In this document: positions 49,947 through 58,422 of the stretch, piece after piece
How the letters are laid out: every line of letters begins with the position of its first letter
Position numbering within the stretch: position 1 is the first letter of the stretch
Assembly: GCA_034926675.1 (NCBI GenBank)
Contig: JAYFQW010000003.1
Coordinates: 1-64,000 of the forward strand
DNA length: 64,000 nucleotides
Origin: Clostridia bacterium
GTDB lineage: Bacteria > Bacillota > DTU025
Direction of reading: 5' to 3'
Translations under genes and position numbers: made by a program
The notes under the pieces: model-generated
The model's input: the letters and a program-made list of their open reading frames with translations, nothing else
Databases searched by the model: none
Told to the model about the DNA's origin: nothing

Positions 49947-52634
49947 CTATAGATACCCACTTCGTACGAGTGTTTCCTTTGCGGACTCTGTGTCTTCATG
50001 AGCCACCATCACTACCGGCCCTGTGCATCCCATTCCGGTGGACGCGTAGATTCCCGCGGCCCAAAGCGCCTGCACAGCCTCATCGAGCTGCAGAATGTCG
50101 ACGCCGGTGATCTCGTGAGTGGTTACCTTCGTCGGCGGCGCCGCTGCCTCAGCATGCGCGCTGCCATCGGCCCCAGCAGATGCAGCGCAGCCGGCCTCTG
50201 CCTTTGCTTTATCTGTTCCAGTAACAGCAGGCCACCCAGCCCCACGTGCCGCAGCGAACTCCGCCGCGGCCACCTCGCGCAAGCGCCCGTTTACCAGATC
50301 AGCAGCGTATCGGATCGCCGCGGCCACCACCGGAGCGCCTGATGCGCGAGAGAGGATCATGATGATCCTGTTGTACCCCTCGCCAACTCCAGGACCATAA
50401 CCGTACCCCGATGCCTCGTAGTCACCGCCTGTGGTGAATGCTGAGAAGATCTTCATGAGCAGGTTTCCCGTGAGAGTGTCGCAGACCATCACATCTGGAG
50501 ACCCCATGAGGAGATCGTTTCCGCGCATCACTGCTCCGCCGTCAGATCTTGCGGATCCCGCGAACGAGACGGCATACCCCGCCTCCGCGAGCCTCCGCAA
50601 TCCCCGCTCTACCTGCCTCGCTCCGTCCACATTGAGAATGCCCACAGTCGGCTCAGCCACTCCGCAGGCCTTAGCAGCGGCAACACCATACACCGCGTTC
50701 TTGATCATGTTCTCCACCCTGTCAGTGCCCGATGTGCCGGTTGTGGTGGCGATGAACATCTCCCGGCCCCTGCCTGGAGTCACAACGCGCCCTACCGTGG
50801 ATACGCCTATCGGGAAACTGTAGTGCATGGTGACACACGCGTCGATCTCCCCGGAATCCAGCAACTCCTCCATACGGCGGTGCTGCTCGTGCTCGTCGGC
50901 CGCGCAGTGCGCACCCCGGGGCCCGATGAGCACGACCTCAAGATCCGAGCATGACTTCGCCGCAAGCTCGGCGCCGCGGATGATCTCCTCGGGTCCATGT
51001 TCAGAGCCTAGCACTGTAAGCCCTATGCGCGGCTTACGGGCCGCATGTCCTGGTCCGAACCCGGCTTCGAGTCCGAGTCTGGGTCCGAGTCCGCGCCCGG
51101 GTCCGAGTTCGAGCCCGGTTCCGACTCCGGGTCCGGCGGCGCCGCCTCCGCAGCAGCCCGTCGTATGTCCTGCCTCGGCCGCTCCCGAATCCCCAGGGTT
51201 CGGCTCCAGTAAGAATGATACTCCATCGAACAGGTTGGTCATGCGCCCAAGGAACAGCGAACCCTTGCCGATGATCTGTGCGCGCCGCATCCTTCCGGCC
51301 ATGAGTTCCTCTCTGAAGTATCCGATTAGTGGTACGCCTGACGGAATGTGCCCCTGTGTGGGTGCGAACCCGGGCAGACTTTTGGCCTCCACGAACGCGT
51401 TTATGTCGGTACGTGCGATTTCGCCCTTCTTCACAGCAAGGGCAGCTATCATCTTGACGTTGGCCTTGGGCACATCGCCAGCCCCTGCAGGCTCGGTGAT
51501 CTCAGGGTTCTGCATCTCAGGAGAGTACTTGTCCACGTCCGAAAGCTTGAGCCCTACCCTCTCCAAAGGCTCAACCACAATTGCGGTCATAACGGCCTGC
51601 GGAGATGAGCCTGAGCCTATGGTGTGTCTACCCACAGCGTCAGTCCGGATGATAGGGCTGACGCCATCGTTTGCCGAAACCAGAACCGCGAACGCTCCCA
51701 GCACATCCTCGAGAATCGGCAACCCCTTATTCACGTGGTCTCGCCCGTTCATCCCCAGTTTGGCCGTGGCGCCGCCGGCGACCACCGCCACATTGCGGAA
51801 CACGCCCGCCTTCACAAGCGATGCAGCGTTGACCAGTGCATGGGAAGGCGCTGCGCAGAACCCGCGCACATCGCATCCAGTGGCATTCACACATCCGGCC
51901 ATCTCGCCCACTGCTTTGGCGAAGTTGCCGCCGCCGCGCTGGTTCATGTCTCCACACGCTTCCTCAGAGCACTCGATGATGTAGTCGATCTCCCCGGCAT
52001 CGATACCCATGTTGTGAATGAGGCGCCTGAGAGCCAGTACACCGGAGGCCTTGGCCGCAAGATTCTCCATCATCACATGGGACGACAGGTTCCGATCCCG
52101 CTCATGGGCTGCCCTCACACACCCCACGAGCCGCCCCGCGCTGTACAGAGGCTCAGCATGGGCATCGCGAACCAGGTGCTCGATCTCCTCAGTCGGCGCG
52201 CCGCTCCCGAGCCTGGCTGAATCGCTCTCTCGCCACACAGGGCTCGCCGCCATCGCGGCGGCAATGCCCTTCGCGAAGCTCTCCTCCAGTGCCACCAGGT
52301 CAAAACTGTCCACAATCCTCATCAGGCCGTAGAACTCGTCCTCCGGCAGCACCTCGCCGTACCTGCCGACTCGCTTCGCGCCTTCCAGGGGTTTGCCGTG
52401 CCAGGGCCGCGCAATGCCTGCGAGTTCAGCCGGGGTGATGTTTCCAATATAGGCCTGGTTCGGGGGATAACTCATGCACTGTTCATATGTGCGAAGATGT
52501 TTAGGCAGTTCCTTAAGGTATTCAGAATCCGGGTTGGCCTCTCGCTCCATCGTTTGGGTTGTTCCCATCTCGAGGAGCAGAGATGGGGCATGAACAAGGG
52601 CGTAGCTAACGCCACGAATGACGGGGTAGTCCAT
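49947..52634 (-). CDS. grdCD: Glycine/sarcosine/betaine reductase component C, fused beta and alpha subunits (GrdC-GrdD)
   Basis: An 895-residue protein. Residues 1 to about 510 match GrdC (FabH-like; MDYPVIRGVSYALVHAPSLL, CGDMNQRGGGNFAKAVGE). Residues from about 545 match GrdD (PlsX-like; starting KPRIGLTVLGSEHGPEE), whose conserved Cys is in GIYASTGMGCTGPVVM. A Gly/Pro-rich linker joins them. Component C turns the carboxymethyl-selenoether on GrdA into acetyl phosphate. The two are normally separate proteins. ATG at 52634 has AGGAGG six bases upstream. Another low-complexity stretch lies in the GrdD half before the last 60 residues. Confidence 0.93.
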   Translation of the reverse strand: MDYPVIRGVSYALVHAPSLLLEMGTTQTMEREANPDSEYLKELPKHLRTYEQCMSYPPNQAYIGNITPAELAGIARPWHGKPLEGAKRVGRYGEVLPEDEFYGLMRIVDSFDLVALEESFAKGIAAAMAASPVWRESDSARLGSGAPTEEIEHLVRDAHAEPLYSAGRLVGCVRAAHERDRNLSSHVMMENLAAKASGVLALRRLIHNMGIDAGEIDYIIECSEEACGDMNQRGGGNFAKAVGEMAGCVNATGCDVRGFCAAPSHALVNAASLVKAGVFRNVAVVAGGATAKLGMNGRDHVNKGLPILEDVLGAFAVLVSANDGVSPIIRTDAVGRHTIGSGSSPQAVMTAIVVEPLERVGLKLSDVDKYSPEMQNPEITEPAGAGDVPKANVKMIAALAVKKGEIARTDINAFVEAKSLPGFAPTQGHIPSGVPLIGYFREELMAGRMRRAQIIGKGSLFLGRMTNLFDGVSFLLEPNPGDSGAAEAGHTTGCCGGGAAGPGVGTGLELGPGRGLGPRLGLEAGFGPGHAARKPRIGLTVLGSEHGPEEIIRGAELAAKSCSDLEVVLIGPRGAHCAADEHEQHRRMEELLDSGEIDACVTMHYSFPIGVSTVGRVVTPGRGREMFIATTTGTSGTDRVENMIKNAVYGVAAAKACGVAEPTVGILNVDGARQVERGLRRLAEAGYAVSFAGSARSDGGAVMRGNDLLMGSPDVMVCDTLTGNLLMKIFSAFTTGGDYEASGYGYGPGVGEGYNRIIMILSRASGAPVVAAAIRYAADLVNGRLREVAAAEFAAARGAGWPAVTGTDKAKAEAGCAASAGADGSAHAEAAAPPTKVTTHEITGVDILQLDEAVQALWAAGIYASTGMGCTGPVVMVAHEDTESAKETLVRSGYL

Positions 52635-52762
52635 CCAGACACCTCCTGACGCATCTTTGACGATGGGTCCCGGCACATAGCGCCACCCCATGCCGCATGC
52701 ATTATGCAGCATGCAGAACAGAGCCTGGCGCTTGCGCCGGGACCCCCGACTCGCTCTTAAGT

Positions 52763-54073
52763 CTACTTCTCGAAGACGGTCTGGTCCTCCACTTCGGTCT
52801 GGAGAGCCCTAAGCGCCCTCTCAACCAGACCACGGCGGAGTCGCTTCTCATCTTCAGGTGTAAGCGATGGATTGCCCAGCGGGTGCGGAATCGCAACTGT
52901 AGGCACTATCCGGTTCGCCCCAACCGTAATGGAGATGGGGACCACGGTGCACATGTGCACGACTGGGAGCCCCGCGCGCTCTATTTCTTTGACCATCGTT
53001 GCACCGCAACGTGTGCAAGTGCCTCAGGTGCTGGTTAGGATGACGCCCTGGACTCCGGCCTCAACCAGTTCCTTTGCGATGGCCGCAGCGTACTTCTTCG
53101 CGTTTGCCACAGAAGTGCCGTTGCCAACCGTTGCGTAGTAGTAACGATGAAGCTTACCGATAACGCCTTCGCGCTCCAGGTCTCTCATGACATCCACTGG
53201 CAGAACCCGGTTTGGCGCGGCATTGGCATACACCGGGTCGTAGCCTCCGTGGGCGGTCTGATGGCTCTGATCGGTAAGGGTGCTGATCCCCTCAAGGTCG
53301 TACTTCCCGTACTTCGAAGCCGAGGAGGACTCAATGTGATCGGGGTTGCCCTTCGGCACGATCCCGCCCGAGGTAACCAGAGCGATAGTGGCATGGGCCA
53401 TGTCCTTGATCGCCGCGTTGGGATGCACCCGGTCGAAATGGGGCATCGCATACTCGGTTTCGAAGGAATCGCCCATGAGCTTCTTGACTAGCATATCCAC
53501 GGCGCGCTTCGATCCCCGCTCAGTGGCGAAGTAGTTCTGCCTTATGCCACGGCTGAGGTAACCATCGGTCGCAGGATTCGTGGGCTCCCCATGAACCAGC
53601 TTGCGCGCGAGCGCGGCCATCTTAGGGACGGCAGTGCGCATTCCGGCCGCGCTGTCGCCGGTTTGAACGATGTAGGCCTGCTTGCGGAACATGTCAACAC
53701 CGGGGTTCTCCTGATACATTCCGGTGACCACCGGAATCTGGAGTTTCTCCGCAACTGCTGCGCACACTGCGCCGCAGGCTACGCCGTAACGTCCCGCGTT
53801 GAAGGCAGGGCCGGCAATGAGCAGGTCGGGTTCGTACTTCTGGATGAGAGCAACCACCTCAGCTGTGGCCGTCTCCATGTTCTCGCCGAAATACGTGTCG
53901 CCGCAGATGACTGTCCCGACGATTTCCGCCTGATCCCACAGGGCCGCGGCAAACGCCATTCCGGGGCCTACGAGGCCTGCCTTGTCAAAAGGACGGATTC
54001 CAGCCTTGTCTTCTCCCCCAATCTGCCCGAAAAACTGGTTGAGGTAGTGGACTATCCGCACTTTCTTGGTCAT
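52763..54073 (-). CDS. grdB: Glycine reductase component B gamma subunit, selenoprotein GrdB
   Basis: GrdB (436 residues including selenocysteine) binds glycine with the pyruvoyl subunit made from GrdE. The frame is interrupted only by TGA at 53024-53026, codon 350, giving LTST-Sec-GTCTRCG, the GrdB selenocysteine site. Continuity of family sequence across it shows that it is not a frameshift. The N terminus is MTKKVRIVHYLNQFFGQIGGEDK. Expression needs SelB, tRNA-Sec and SelA/SelD, none of which are in the window. Confidence 0.95.
52999..53026 (-). promoter_or_regulatory. Possible SECIS hairpin of grdB
   Basis: Five bases after the UGA codon the mRNA can fold TTGCAC with GTGCAA around an 8-base loop (52999-53018). 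Bacterial SECIS elements lie directly after UGA. The stem is short, so this is a suggestion. Confidence 0.4.
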
Positions 54074-54115: not shown

Positions 54116-54583
54116 CTAGTACTTGCTGTACTGCTGGCGGATTGTGCTAACCTCCTTCTTGATGGCATCTACGTCGAGAACCATCTCCATCATGCTCACT
54201 TGGGCTTCCCACACTGCGGGGTCAATCTCTGCCTTGATCTCGTCCTCCAGAATGTGCCATACGCTCAGTCCCAACTGGACTCCCGCTAACGGACCTGCAT
54301 AGGTCGGGTCTCCGTTGCTCACAGTCTCCGCTGTGAGGCCTGACGCTTCCGCCTCGGCCCCTCCAAGCACGATGACTATGTTCTCTGGCCCGTACTTCTC
54401 GGCCAGTTCTTTAACCCGCCTCTGGTTCTCTAGGTCCATTGCGCCGGCGGCCGTTCAGACAAAGCACTCGCTGACGGAGAAGATAATCTCGCCACCAGCC
54501 GACTTGACGCACTCATCTATGGCGCCGCCAGGTATACCATCGCGGTCGCCCAGGGCTACGATCTTCTTACCCTTGAGGATCAA
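54116..54583 (-). CDS. grdA: Glycine reductase protein A, selenoprotein GrdA
   Basis: GrdA (155 residues) is the small selenoprotein that carries the carboxymethyl group between components B and C and is reduced by thioredoxin. TGA at 54455-54457 encodes selenocysteine in SECFV[14 protein letters not shown]. The C-terminal [17 protein letters not shown] and [11 protein letters not shown] are typical. TTG at 54583 (AGGAG nine bases upstream) puts Sec at residue 43, as in known GrdA; ATG at 54592 is possible but touches the ribosome site. Confidence 0.95.
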
Positions 54584-54624
54584 TTGCGGCATCTCCTTTC
54601 CCGTGTAATGTGAAGTTGCTGCTG

Positions 54625-55911
54625 CTACGCCTCGCGAGCGGAAAGCTCCGAGAAGCCAAGCTCGCAAGTAGCGCCGGTGATAACCTGGATCTCAGCGGTA
54701 ATGGACCCATGGGCTGCGAGGGATCCGTTCCAGCCGCCCGCTATGGTGTCGGCCGCGTCTGGATGGCCGATGACTTTCTTCATAGGAGGCAGGACGATCA
54801 CTTCGTTGGCATTCCCCGCCGTCACGACAGCGTCTGCCAGGGGGTTCGCATCAGCCAATGACTGCGATGCGCCATCCCGGCCAGCATACTCGTCGGTAAC
54901 GAGAACGGTCTTGATGCCCTTCTTCTCCAGCTTCACGCAGTTCATGATGAGGTCGGCATCGGGGTTTCCGAAGCCCTCCTCCGACACGATGGCTGCGTCG
55001 GCCCCGAGCATCTCAACGAGCTTCGACGCGAAGTTCGAGGAGCGCTCCTTGTCGGCCAGAGTCACGTTCTCGTTGGTGACCACCACGCCGATGAAGTTGA
55101 TGTCCTTCCCATGCCTGGCAAGGAGATCATGGATGACTGGCGAGTTCTGGTGATGGTAGGTAGTGTTCTTGTCGCACGCAGAGACGCAATTCCCGGAGAC
55201 TATGGCGCCGTCCATCACCTCAGTTGGGTAGATCAACGTGGGCAGAGTGCGCTTGGCATCGATGCCATACACGTAGGTGTCGTGCAACAGCCCCTGGCTC
55301 TGGAGCATGTATACATACACTACCTTCGGCAGACCCGGGAAGGCCTTGACTTGATCGAGAAGAGGCATAACCTCGAACGACTCGATCTCATCCGGCTCTA
55401 CAACCCGACCGGCCTCGCCGATGAACGTTGCGATCTTCAGCCCTGCCATGCGGACGACGGCCTCATGCTCGTGCTGGGGCAGGCCCGGCGCAGGTTCGCA
55501 CACGACCACCACGTTGTTGAGCTTTGAAAACGGAGTGTACGCGGCGCCAGGGCCGCTCATGTCGATGATGCCCTCCTGGAACCCGACGATCCGGCCGGTG
55601 GTGATCACGGCTGCGCCGGAAAGCACATGAGTGCGGCCATTGCCGACCATCTCGACCTTGCTCACCATTCCTGGGAACACGCCGCCAGTCCCGGAGACCT
55701 TGACTCGAGGTTCGATTACGTCCTTCACAGGGATGATGCGGATTTCCTCCCCGGGGCGGGCAAGCTCGACCTTGACATCGACGATCCTCTCATCCTCGCG
55801 GGCGATCGCCTCGATTGCGGCCTTGTCCACGTAGAGGACACCGTTCTCCACCTTGGTGACAGGTCCGAACTGAACGTCTTTGATGCGTATCTTGCCAAGT
55901 TCTAACCGCAT
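54625..55911 (-). CDS. grdE: Glycine reductase component B precursor GrdE
   Basis: GrdE (428 residues) is a proprotein that is cleaved to two subunits. The Cys of GNCVSACDKNTTYHHQN, residue 242, becomes the pyruvoyl group that binds the amino group of glycine. ATG at 55911 has GGAGGTG seven bases upstream and places the Cys at 242, as in characterised proteins. It follows trxA by 24 bases. Confidence 0.95.
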   Translation of the reverse strand: MRLELGKIRIKDVQFGPVTKVENGVLYVDKAAIEAIAREDERIVDVKVELARPGEEIRIIPVKDVIEPRVKVSGTGGVFPGMVSKVEMVGNGRTHVLSGAAVITTGRIVGFQEGIIDMSGPGAAYTPFSKLNNVVVVCEPAPGLPQHEHEAVVRMAGLKIATFIGEAGRVVEPDEIESFEVMPLLDQVKAFPGLPKVVYVYMLQSQGLLHDTYVYGIDAKRTLPTLIYPTEVMDGAIVSGNCVSACDKNTTYHHQNSPVIHDLLARHGKDINFIGVVVTNENVTLADKERSSNFASKLVEMLGADAAIVSEEGFGNPDADLIMNCVKLEKKGIKTVLVTDEYAGRDGASQSLADANPLADAVVTAGNANEVIVLPPMKKVIGHPDAADTIAGGWNGSLAAHGSITAEIQVITGATCELGFSELSAREA

Positions 55912-55935
55912 TTGTCTCACCTCCAGAGCAGTCAC

Positions 55936-56253
55936 TCAGATCTGCTCCTTGATCATCGCCTCGATGTTGGCGACAGTCGCATCGTCCTTCGTCAACTCCG
56001 CGATCTTCTCACCATTCCTGTACATGCAGATCGTGGGAAGACCCAGCACCCTCTGGCCAATGGCCAGCCTGCGATTTTCCAAGACATTGAGCTTGCAGAA
56101 CTTGATCTGTTTGCCATACTTCTCGGACAGCGCCTCAACCTCAGGAACCAGAGCCATGCATGGCTCGCACTTAGTGCTCCAGAAGTCCACAAGCACAGGG
56201 CCGGGAATCTGCAGCACCTCAGCTTCGAAAGTCTCCTTATTGACCTCAAGCAT
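55936..56253 (-). CDS. trxA: Thioredoxin of the glycine reductase system
   Basis: A 105-residue thioredoxin with active site Cys29-Glu-Pro-Cys32 (WSTKCEPC), unlike the common WCGPC. The cis-Pro is in GLPTICMY. It passes electrons from TrxB to the selenoprotein GrdA. Non-standard active sites are also known in thioredoxins of amino-acid-fermenting clostridia. ATG at 56253 has GGAGG eight bases upstream. Confidence 0.93.
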   Translation of the reverse strand: MLEVNKETFEAEVLQIPGPVLVDFWSTKCEPCMALVPEVEALSEKYGKQIKFCKLNVLENRRLAIGQRVLGLPTICMYRNGEKIAELTKDDATVANIEAMIKEQI

Positions 56254-56336
56254 CTCATTCACCTCCTTTGCAGTGACGCTAGAAGAATCCCACAGCTAGT
56301 CGCCATAGCTGCGCGCCACAATCACTCGCTGCAGCC

Positions 56337-56371
56337 ATTCGCCACCGCTATTCGCCACCGCTATTCGCCAC
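56337..56371. repeat. 13-base tandem repeat at the trxB end
   Basis: ATTCGCCACCGCT occurs twice and a third partial copy overlaps the trxB stop codon. The core ATTCGCCAC also appears (reversed) in the 49361-49394 repeat. Confidence 0.75.
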
Positions 56372-57602
56372 AACTGCGCATTATGCTCGCTACCTTCGAC
56401 TCGAGCTCCGGCCCTGCCGCCGCTTCCGCGACCTTCTCAATCAGGCGCCCCCTATGGAAGAAGGCCAGGGCTGGTGCTGCGGTGATGCCGTAACGCTTAG
56501 CGACACGCTGATTCTTGTAGATGTCGATCTTAACCAGCACGAGCTTATCCGCATTTGCCTCCGCGATCTTCTCAATGGCAGGCATCAGCTCGAGGGAAGC
56601 CGGAGATGTAGGACTCCAGAAGGTGACCAGCACCGGAAGCTCGGGCTCCAGAACCATCTCGCGGAAGCCCTCTTCCTCGTGGATGTACTTCTCGGCGGCT
56701 ATTGCAGCAGCGGCGCCGTCGCCGGCGGCCGTCACTACCTGCCTGATGAACTTCACCCTGGCATCGCCGGCGCAGTATACGCCGTCAACTGAGGTTTCGA
56801 GCATGTCATCAGCGATTACATAGCCGCGCTGGTCCATTTCGACCACACCGCGGAGAAACTCGGTCTTGGGCACGGTTCCGACGAACATGAACACCCCGTT
56901 GGTCTCGATCTCCATCATCTCGTTGGTCTTGATGTTCTTGACGACGACTGTTTCCACGATCCCGTCGCCGCGGATCTCGGCCAGGACTGAGTTCCATACC
57001 CACTTCAGCTTGGGATTCTTGAACGCTCGCTCCCGAATGATGGCGGTAGCGTCGAGAACTCCTTCGTCGTGGACCACGATGATTGTAGCCGAATTCACGA
57101 ATTTGGTGAGGTACATCGCCTCTTGCAGAGCAGAGTCGCCGTTGCCCACGATGACCACGTCGAGGTCGGTGAAGAAATCCGCATCACACGTCGCACAGTA
57201 GGAAACGCCCTTCCCACGCAGCTCCCGCTCGCCTGGAACACCCAGCATACGCGGCTCGGCGCCAGGCGCGACGATGACTGCCTTCGCGATGTAATCGTTG
57301 CCCTTGCGGGTCCGGATCAGCTTACGCTCTGGCGTGAACTCCACGGAGGCGACATCCTCTTTCAGGATCTCGGCCCCGAACTCCTGTGCGTGCTCGGCGA
57401 AGAGCTCCATGAGCTTCGGTCCGCTCATACCCTTGGCGAACCCAGGGTAGTTCTCCATCGACTCTGTTGTGCTGGCCTGCCCGCCCGGCCGTCCCTTCTC
57501 CAGCACAACAGTTGTGAGCCTGGCGCGTGAAGCGTAGATTGCGGCCGAAAGGCCTGCGGGTCCGCCTCCGACGATGGCGACGTCAACTTCTCTAGTGGCC
57601 AT
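56361..57602 (-). CDS. trxB: Thioredoxin reductase with C-terminal redox-dead thioredoxin domain
   Basis: A 413-residue protein. Residues 1-310 are a complete thioredoxin reductase: FAD motif VGGGPAGLSA, redox site C136-A-T-C139, NADPH motif VGNGDSALQE and AGDARVKFIRQVVTAAGDG. Residues about 312-413 form a thioredoxin fold with the active-site loop FWSPTSPAS: both Cys positions are Ser (333 and 336), while the cis-Pro (TAAPALAFF) is kept. Usual TrxB proteins end near residue 310. It follows grdX directly. The extra domain may dock TrxA or GrdA; this is inference. Confidence 0.93.
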   Translation of the reverse strand: MATREVDVAIVGGGPAGLSAAIYASRARLTTVVLEKGRPGGQASTTESMENYPGFAKGMSGPKLMELFAEHAQEFGAEILKEDVASVEFTPERKLIRTRKGNDYIAKAVIVAPGAEPRMLGVPGERELRGKGVSYCATCDADFFTDLDVVIVGNGDSALQEAMYLTKFVNSATIIVVHDEGVLDATAIIRERAFKNPKLKWVWNSVLAEIRGDGIVETVVVKNIKTNEMMEIETNGVFMFVGTVPKTEFLRGVVEMDQRGYVIADDMLETSVDGVYCAGDARVKFIRQVVTAAGDGAAAAIAAEKYIHEEEGFREMVLEPELPVLVTFWSPTSPASLELMPAIEKIAEANADKLVLVKIDIYKNQRVAKRYGITAAPALAFFHRGRLIEKVAEAAAGPELESKVASIMRSCGE

Positions 57603-58106
57603 TTATCGCTGCCCCCTCATCTTGCCCTCATCAGCATCGTTCAGCTGTGTAAAAACGCGGTTCGGGATGTGTTGCGCTCCCAGACTCTCCACAGCACTCT
57701 GCATGAGCGTGAAATCGATTAGCTGGAAGTCGTCGTCGAGCCTTGCAGGCATCTGCGCGGCAACGGCAGTTGCGACGCTCTCCTTGGCCCGCGTCGTGTC
57801 GCCGCGGCGAGCGAACCTCGGAGGCCCGAGTCGCGCGGCAACTGATAGCGCCCCCTCGATCAGCCGGAGCGAGTCGTAGTCGACTGTGGCAGCAGGAACA
57901 TCCCCCACGACAATCGACCGATATGGTGTTTGGTTAGGCTTGACCGAACCGGCCAACGGGTGAGTGAGAAGGCAGTGGCAACGGTGGACAAGGTCTCTTG
58001 CCCTGAGAAAAACCTGATTAGCACTGCCGTCGATCCATTCAGTGCTCTCGGGCCACCGCGCAGCTACAGACGGGTTGTTTGTGATGATCCGATAGTGCAA
58101 CGGCAT
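57603..58106 (-). CDS. grdX: GrdX family protein
   Basis: GrdX is a small conserved protein of unknown function that opens glycine reductase operons. The match is in the first 115 residues, including CHCLLTHPLAGSVKPNQTPYRSIVV. At 167 residues it is some 40 longer than usual, with a C-terminal part (from about 120) of no recognised family. ATG at 58106 has GGAGG 11 bases upstream. It is the first gene after the riboswitch and ends at the base before the trxB ATG. Confidence 0.85.
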   Translation of the reverse strand: MPLHYRIITNNPSVAARWPESTEWIDGSANQVFLRARDLVHRCHCLLTHPLAGSVKPNQTPYRSIVVGDVPAATVDYDSLRLIEGALSVAARLGPPRFARRGDTTRAKESVATAVAAQMPARLDDDFQLIDFTLMQSAVESLGAQHIPNRVFTQLNDADEGKMRGQR

Positions 58107-58162
58107 GATCGTGAGCACCTCCATTACGCCGCGGAGTTAGTGTGAGCATCCTTGCGGAAAAT

Positions 58163-58215
58163 GAAAAAGGCAGAGAAAACAAGTACGGCAATGCAGATGC
58201 CGTATTGCTTCTCTG
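58163..58215 (-). terminator. Riboswitch-controlled terminator
   Basis: Outer stem CAGAGAA/TTCTCTG (58171-58177 with 58209-58215) and inner stem TACGGCA/TGCCGTA, followed on the minus strand by CCTTTTTC. It lies just after the second aptamer, whose last bases overlap the stem, so ligand binding can favour or prevent it. Confidence 0.8.
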
Positions 58216-58393
58216 TCCTTGGAACCTGAGAGATTTACTCCTTCGGTGCCCTCGCGAAGCTTTCCAGAGGCGCCGTCCAGTCGCGGTCCTTCTGCCTGAG
58301 AGTTTGTGGATACTGCCTCGGCTTGGCAGAGTACCTTTGCTCCTTCGGCGCCCACTACAGGCTACACGCCACTAATGAGACTCTCCCGCGACC
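58211..58393 (-). promoter_or_regulatory. Tandem glycine riboswitch
   Basis: Two consecutive glycine aptamers. The first (about 58280-58393) has a P1 stem GTCGCGG/CCGCGAC, GGCGCCGAAGGAGCAA and AACTCTCAGGCAGAAGGACCG. The second (about 58211-58278) has CTGGAAAGC, GCACCGAAGGAGTAAA and TCTCTCAGG...AAGGACAG. These are the conserved cores of the family. It controls the grd operon, which fits glycine being the substrate; in other bacteria glycine turns such operons on. Confidence 0.95.
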
Positions 58394-58422
58394 TTCCTCC
58401 GGCTAGCACTATTACACCTGCT

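Follow-up and report, generated by a model that had tools for sequence, protein, structure and literature searches.

A thioredoxin reductase with a fused thioredoxin domain lacking both redox cysteines, in a glycine reductase operon

The closest described system belongs to the grd operon of C. difficile, which has a glycine riboswitch upstream and encodes a dedicated thioredoxin reductase, TrxB3, together with an atypical thioredoxin, TrxA3, of active site (G/S)C(V/E)PC, proposed to reduce GrdA (PMC10880999). TrxB3 contains the motifs GxGxxA and HRRxxxR, the second of which binds the 2'-phosphate of NADPH (PMC8564101, PMC6262447), and no extra domain is mentioned for it (PMC10880999). HRRxxxR is absent from the ferredoxin-dependent FFTR and from the NADH- or F420-dependent reductases TaTR and MjTR, and TaTR uses NADH (PMC6262447). 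Chimeric TrxA-TrxB proteins are mentioned in the C. difficile study only in general terms, and no degenerate domain appears in its main text (PMC10880999).

Single chains in which a thioredoxin follows a reductase include the M. leprae-type TrxB-Trx fusions, which are active and carry a WCGPC site. The NTRC of plants and cyanobacteria also joins a reductase to a C-terminal thioredoxin, which is redox active; NTRC was not found in a grd context. A search of the literature outside subscription journals found no published description of a thioredoxin reductase with a dead fused thioredoxin domain. Reductase-thioredoxin fusions being already known, the protein described here appears to be a new variant among them.

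The reductase and its operon

The window is the whole stretch of 64,000 nucleotides that was analysed, and all the features below lie on its minus strand. The operon reads riboswitch, grdX, trxB-pseudoTrx, trxA, grdE, grdA, grdB, grdC-grdD. At its head, directly upstream of grdX, is a tandem glycine riboswitch (58211..58398, two matches to RF00504), followed by GrdX (57603..58124, NF038093 above cut-off) and by the gene under study (56361..57602, 413 amino acids). TrxA (55936..56262) scores above the cut-off of NF047697; GrdE, the protein B alpha subunit (54625..55935), is named from its position and relatives, its best model, sarcosine_GrdG, scoring below cut-off. Two selenoproteins come next: GrdA (54116..54592), above the cut-off of NF040748 when the TGA at 54455-54457 is read as selenocysteine, and GrdB (52763..54073, TIGR01917 above cut-off), with its TGA at 53024-53026 and a SECIS element at 52986-53023 (RF01990). 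The local RNA fold around the selenocysteine codon of GrdA was no better than that of shuffled sequences. A single frame of 921 residues (49947-52712) encodes GrdC fused to GrdD; NF040746 matches residues 30-505, NF040747 residues 555-921, and a linker rich in glycine and proline joins the two.

GrdX, a CEPC thioredoxin, GrdE, GrdA and GrdB under a glycine riboswitch are the marks of a grd-operon thioredoxin system. As with TrxB3 and TrxA3 of C. difficile, a dedicated TrxB and TrxA stand inside a riboswitch-headed operon (PMC10880999). Elsewhere the genome encodes one other, general thioredoxin, on contig C24 with a WCGPC site, and, on contig C27, a reductase relative 296 residues long; within this genome only the window gene reaches the cut-off of the TrxB model. 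The operon is a glycine reductase operon controlled by a glycine riboswitch, and the window gene encodes its dedicated thioredoxin reductase.

An earlier note on this DNA had described a complete TrxB carrying a thioredoxin domain, next to a separate trxA with CEPC and a GrdA selenoprotein. Both domains exceed their cut-offs, the gene being on the minus strand, and both neighbours are present, with the site FWSTKCEPC in TrxA and an in-frame TGA in grdA. The reductase part, residues 1-306 (56685..57602), matches TIGR01292 over residues 7-307 in a profile search (352.9 bits, against a cut-off of 343.45). It has the FAD-binding GxGxxG as GGGPAG at residues 12-17, and its redox pair C136-A-T-C139 (57186..57197) is intact and invariant in alignments. 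Since the reductase half is complete by sequence, electrons should pass from NAD(P)H through FAD and CATC to the separate TrxA, with its CEPC site, and from there to GrdA.

The choice of NAD(P)H may be narrowed. GxGxxA is present (GNGDSA), and in place of HRRxxxR the protein reads H178-DEGVL-D184 (57051..57071), after a loop two residues longer: this sets it apart from TrxB3 and from NADPH-specific reductases, which have both motifs, and also from FFTR, in which both are absent. The window TrxB shares the lack of HRRxxxR with FFTR, TaTR and MjTR, but keeps GxGxxA and has an acidic H[DE]EG for HRR, pointing to NADH; an acidic residue at this site usually goes with NADH. To our knowledge, FFTR, TaTR and MjTR have no fused domain.

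The comparison was extended to 161 distinct TrxBs drawn from relatives, a same-phylum sample and named genomes, of which 93 have a C-terminal thioredoxin domain. In 84 of the 93 fusions H[DE]xG (H[DE]EG, with the longer loop) stands in place of HRRxxxR, which is retained by 61 of 67 unfused TrxBs and by a group of fusions called clade C below. These counts suggest that the H[DE]EG-bearing fused TrxBs of grd operons are NADH-dependent. The link between motif and fusion may, however, reflect one or two shared ancestors, and so it does not indicate that motif and fusion function together.

Loss of the cysteine pair in the fused family

The C-terminal domain, at about residues 309-404 (56391..56678), matches PF00085 over residues 308-404 (54.4 bits, against a cut-off of 23.5). 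Alignments confirm what the earlier note had read there: the former active site is F328-WSPTSPA-S336 (56595..56621), with Ser333 and Ser336 in the cysteine positions, and the cis-proline is kept as P377 (56472..56474), as it is in 49 of 50 domains. The buried aspartate of thioredoxin, Asp26 in E. coli, is needed for its chemistry; at residue 327, the equivalent position, the window protein has Thr, and the fusions have A, V, T, M or L. Because both cysteines and the equivalent of the buried Asp are gone, the domain cannot cycle a disulfide and is unable to do dithiol chemistry. This separates it from the mycobacterial example of the M. leprae type in our set, L105, a reductase-then-thioredoxin chain with WCGPC and an interdomain insert of about 40 residues; the window fusion reads FWSPTSPAS and has a continuous helix instead of a linker. 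Thioredoxin trees also separate L105 from the grd-type domains.

The same open frame, also without CxxC, is found in five relatives of the same family at 70-73% identity, and dozens of further sequences agree. Read-through, frameshift, and assembly or sequencing artefacts are ruled out by open reading frames of equal length in many genomes.

CxxC is absent from 91 of the 93 fusions, 17 of them keeping the second cysteine only and 74 neither, and from all 65 that are linked to grd genes; 18 further sequences of clade B, the sister group described below, also lack the pair. The two exceptions are L105 and a clade B domain with an intact CELC, a single sequence from a Spirochaetales MAG (L045:5989-7209), which is likely a picture of the redox-active ancestor. 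An intact CxxC in close relatives would have spoken against the reading of the earlier note, and none of them has one. Ser-Ser itself is rejected as a conserved signature: in the 65 fusions linked to grd genes, position 333 varies freely, with S in 19, N in 13, V in 11, H in 6, D in 5 and K in 4, with others, and position 336 is S in 47, C in 10, T in 3 and A in 3, others including Gly and Gln. Serine at both positions is, in these alignments, a trait of near relatives only, and the widely conserved trait is the loss of the pair, which is old, family-wide, and more general than first claimed.

The tighter constraint on position 336 than on 333 leaves room for a chemistry of one thiol or hydroxyl in members with Cys or Ser336, for example the binding of a persulfide or selenenyl intermediate. 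We hold this to be very improbable: the position also accepts Ser, Thr, Ala, Gly and Gln, and helix capping would explain a serine too.

In a reductase tree obtained by a quick search, with a weak backbone, the fusions form three groups. Clade A, whose members almost all adjoin grd genes, holds the window TrxB together with sequences from Gammaproteobacteria; clade B includes Moorella and Paenibacillus, and clade C is mostly Synergistota. The motif D-x-Y-[KR]-[NS], in the window D360-I-Y362-K363-N364 (56511..56525), is common to the three clades. In the thioredoxin tree, a branch puts the domains of clades A, B and C on one side and every standalone TrxA on the other (SH-aLRT 88, on few columns). 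Motif and branch together favour a single origin of the domain, with a later loss in L039. A recent duplication of the neighbouring TrxA as its source is excluded by the same branch.

Among 399 genomes of the same phylum, GrdE is found in 100, and about 50 of these carry a clade A fusion (tables cross-read). A further small thioredoxin-type open reading frame or domain match is present at 66 of 68 grd-linked fusion loci, and an active TrxA adjoins the gene in most. The Gammaproteobacteria of clade A are records named Endozoicomonas (L041:458-1690) and Sansalvadorimonas (L042:5941-7146); their place in the tree implies either a transfer between phyla or mis-binned records. In Defluviitaleaceae, L039:5986-6963 keeps the grd operon and a TrxB with H[DE]EG, and has lost the thioredoxin domain. 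One genome, G122, has three near-identical fused TrxBs (L147, L148, L149), which lie in three separate grd-type operons with differing GrdB and GrdE relatives, of the glycine type and probably of the sarcosine/betaine type.

Clade B offers a second context. At L047:2900-7200, L043:5060-7209, L018, L021, L053 and L194, the neighbours are, in order, a LysR regulator, a YeeE/YedE half (PF04143), TusA (PF01206) and a second YeeE/YedE half, and no GrdA. Bacterial thiosulfate uptake by YeeE together with a TusA-like partner has been described (PMC11073785). The same build in these operons would mean that one design of reductase works with a different carrier of sulfur or selenium, and the clade B protein is possibly a dedicated reductase for such a carrier. 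GrdA, being absent there, cannot be the ancestral partner.

Selection, structure and the role of the domain

If the ancestor was probably active, as the CELC of L045 and the second cysteine of 17 of the 93 fusions indicate, the domain could be a relic, today weakly constrained. Its rate of evolution is about 2-3 times that of the reductase, and L039 has lost it. However, pairwise dN/dS is far below 1, with values mostly of 0.06-0.25 for the domain and about 0.02-0.07 for the reductase, so that purifying selection acts on the domain, which many bacterial families have kept. The fused set shows no frameshifts or truncations except in L039 and at contig ends, and long retention and the D-x-Y-[KR]-N motif, new to the fused family, also argue against a relic, which we consider quite unlikely. 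Since the redox pair is lost family-wide, yet the domain is folded and under purifying selection, the sensible interpretation is that it serves a non-catalytic role.

Where would such a role be exerted? Across 50 domains of clade A, residues F328, W329, P331, E344, K358, D360, Y362, R/K363, N364, R370, Y371, P377 and G385 are held, and positions 332-335 vary; the conserved motifs are D-x-Y-[KR]-N, R-Y, FW-P and the cis-proline. The usual docking patch of thioredoxin, which we take to be W31, G33, P34 and G74 in E. coli numbering, is not conserved in these domains, so that any binding would use an altered face. The lack of a conserved surface would also have spoken against the earlier note; the domain does have a group of conserved residues, different from the patch by which thioredoxins usually dock.

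An AlphaFold2 model of the window protein alone, as the earlier note had proposed to build, has a confident fold (mean pLDDT 94.3, pTM 0.89, about 95 for the pLDDT of the domain). The last reductase helix runs unbroken into thioredoxin helix alpha1 (residues 289-318, 56649..56738), and takes the place of the first thioredoxin strand, beta1, which is missing. A clade B protein is modelled with the same architecture (helix 291-319, pLDDT 91.4, pTM 0.85), and pTM may be read as a sign of a fixed orientation of the domain. The window model lies at about 2 A from solved thioredoxin reductases and at 5.6 A from an FR conformer, and the best model is of the FO type. The Foldseek matches listed were reductases only, with no solved structure of the whole fused architecture.

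A cysteine-free thioredoxin fold would naturally mimic the substrate, and cis-Pro and Trp are kept; the domain could fill the site of TrxA and gate access to it, for example until GrdA or glycine binds. The positions that canonically contact TrxB are variable, though, and in the modelled FO-type conformer the site would not be presented, which makes such a regulatory pseudo-substrate unlikely.

The main rival, ranked next after the reading that we prefer, is structural: the domain would bind no partner, and would stabilise the reductase dimer or limit the swing between the flavin-oxidising and flavin-reducing conformers. The single rigid helix without linker in both models agrees with this, as does the same build in grd and TusA/YeeE contexts, between which no protein partner is shared, and the conserved Y362, R363, N364, R370 and Y371 could face the reductase. 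We find this role somewhat unlikely: it leaves unexplained the concentration of the fusion in grd-bearing genomes, and a higher co-divergence of the domain with GrdA than with the reductase.

This co-divergence was computed on 28 operons with all genes, as the partial correlation of pairwise distances with all other proteins held fixed. It is 0.44 between the domain and GrdA (permutation p < 0.001; jackknife 0.33-0.47), and 0.20 between the domain and the reductase. The domain does not follow TrxA (-0.06), GrdE (0.06) or GrdB (0.10), and with TrxA no co-divergence is seen beyond that of the reductase. The positive controls gave 0.57 for GrdE-GrdB, which form one complex, and 0.28 for TrxB-TrxA; an unexpected 0.40 for TrxB-GrdB makes the noise of the method evident. 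The domain-GrdA value falls to 0.30, the lowest of the drop tests, when two divergent operons are removed, so these distances offer docking of GrdA as a weakly supported lead and not as proof. When TrxA and GrdA were contrasted residue by residue between operons with and without the fusion, differences appeared, but they are confounded by ancestry and nothing is drawn from them.

We tentatively prefer, at somewhat below an even chance, to see the domain as a non-catalytic adaptor for another protein of the pathway, rather than as an electron carrier. Mounted rigidly on the reductase by a single long helix, it would keep that partner close, most likely GrdA or the TrxA-GrdA exchange complex, and proximity would allow quick re-reduction after each turnover of GrdA. 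The docking module of the earlier note stands insofar as the domain is dead, folded, selected and family-wide; for the recruitment of an electron acceptor, the distances hint at GrdA, and not at TrxA. Against an adaptor, the grd operons of classical Clostridia use unfused TrxB, L039 lost the domain and kept the operon, the usual docking surface is not conserved, and clade B operons do without GrdA. A wider conjecture, and a rather doubtful one, is that of an old and widespread NADH-linked TrxB subfamily whose adaptor docks the chalcogen carrier of the pathway concerned, GrdA in glycine, sarcosine and betaine reductase operons and TusA in the YeeE/TusA operons, so that a general enzyme is turned into dedicated electron channels.

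The electron supply of glycine reductase has so far been described with a generic reductase and a thioredoxin. Should half of the grd-bearing genomes sampled indeed rely on a reductase with a dead thioredoxin domain, the electron path has an extra, so far un-assayed component, and may in addition draw on NADH instead of NADPH. If true, this would be a bacterial case of a catalytic domain turned adaptor inside the enzyme that once reduced it, with the transition visible in the CxxC of L045.
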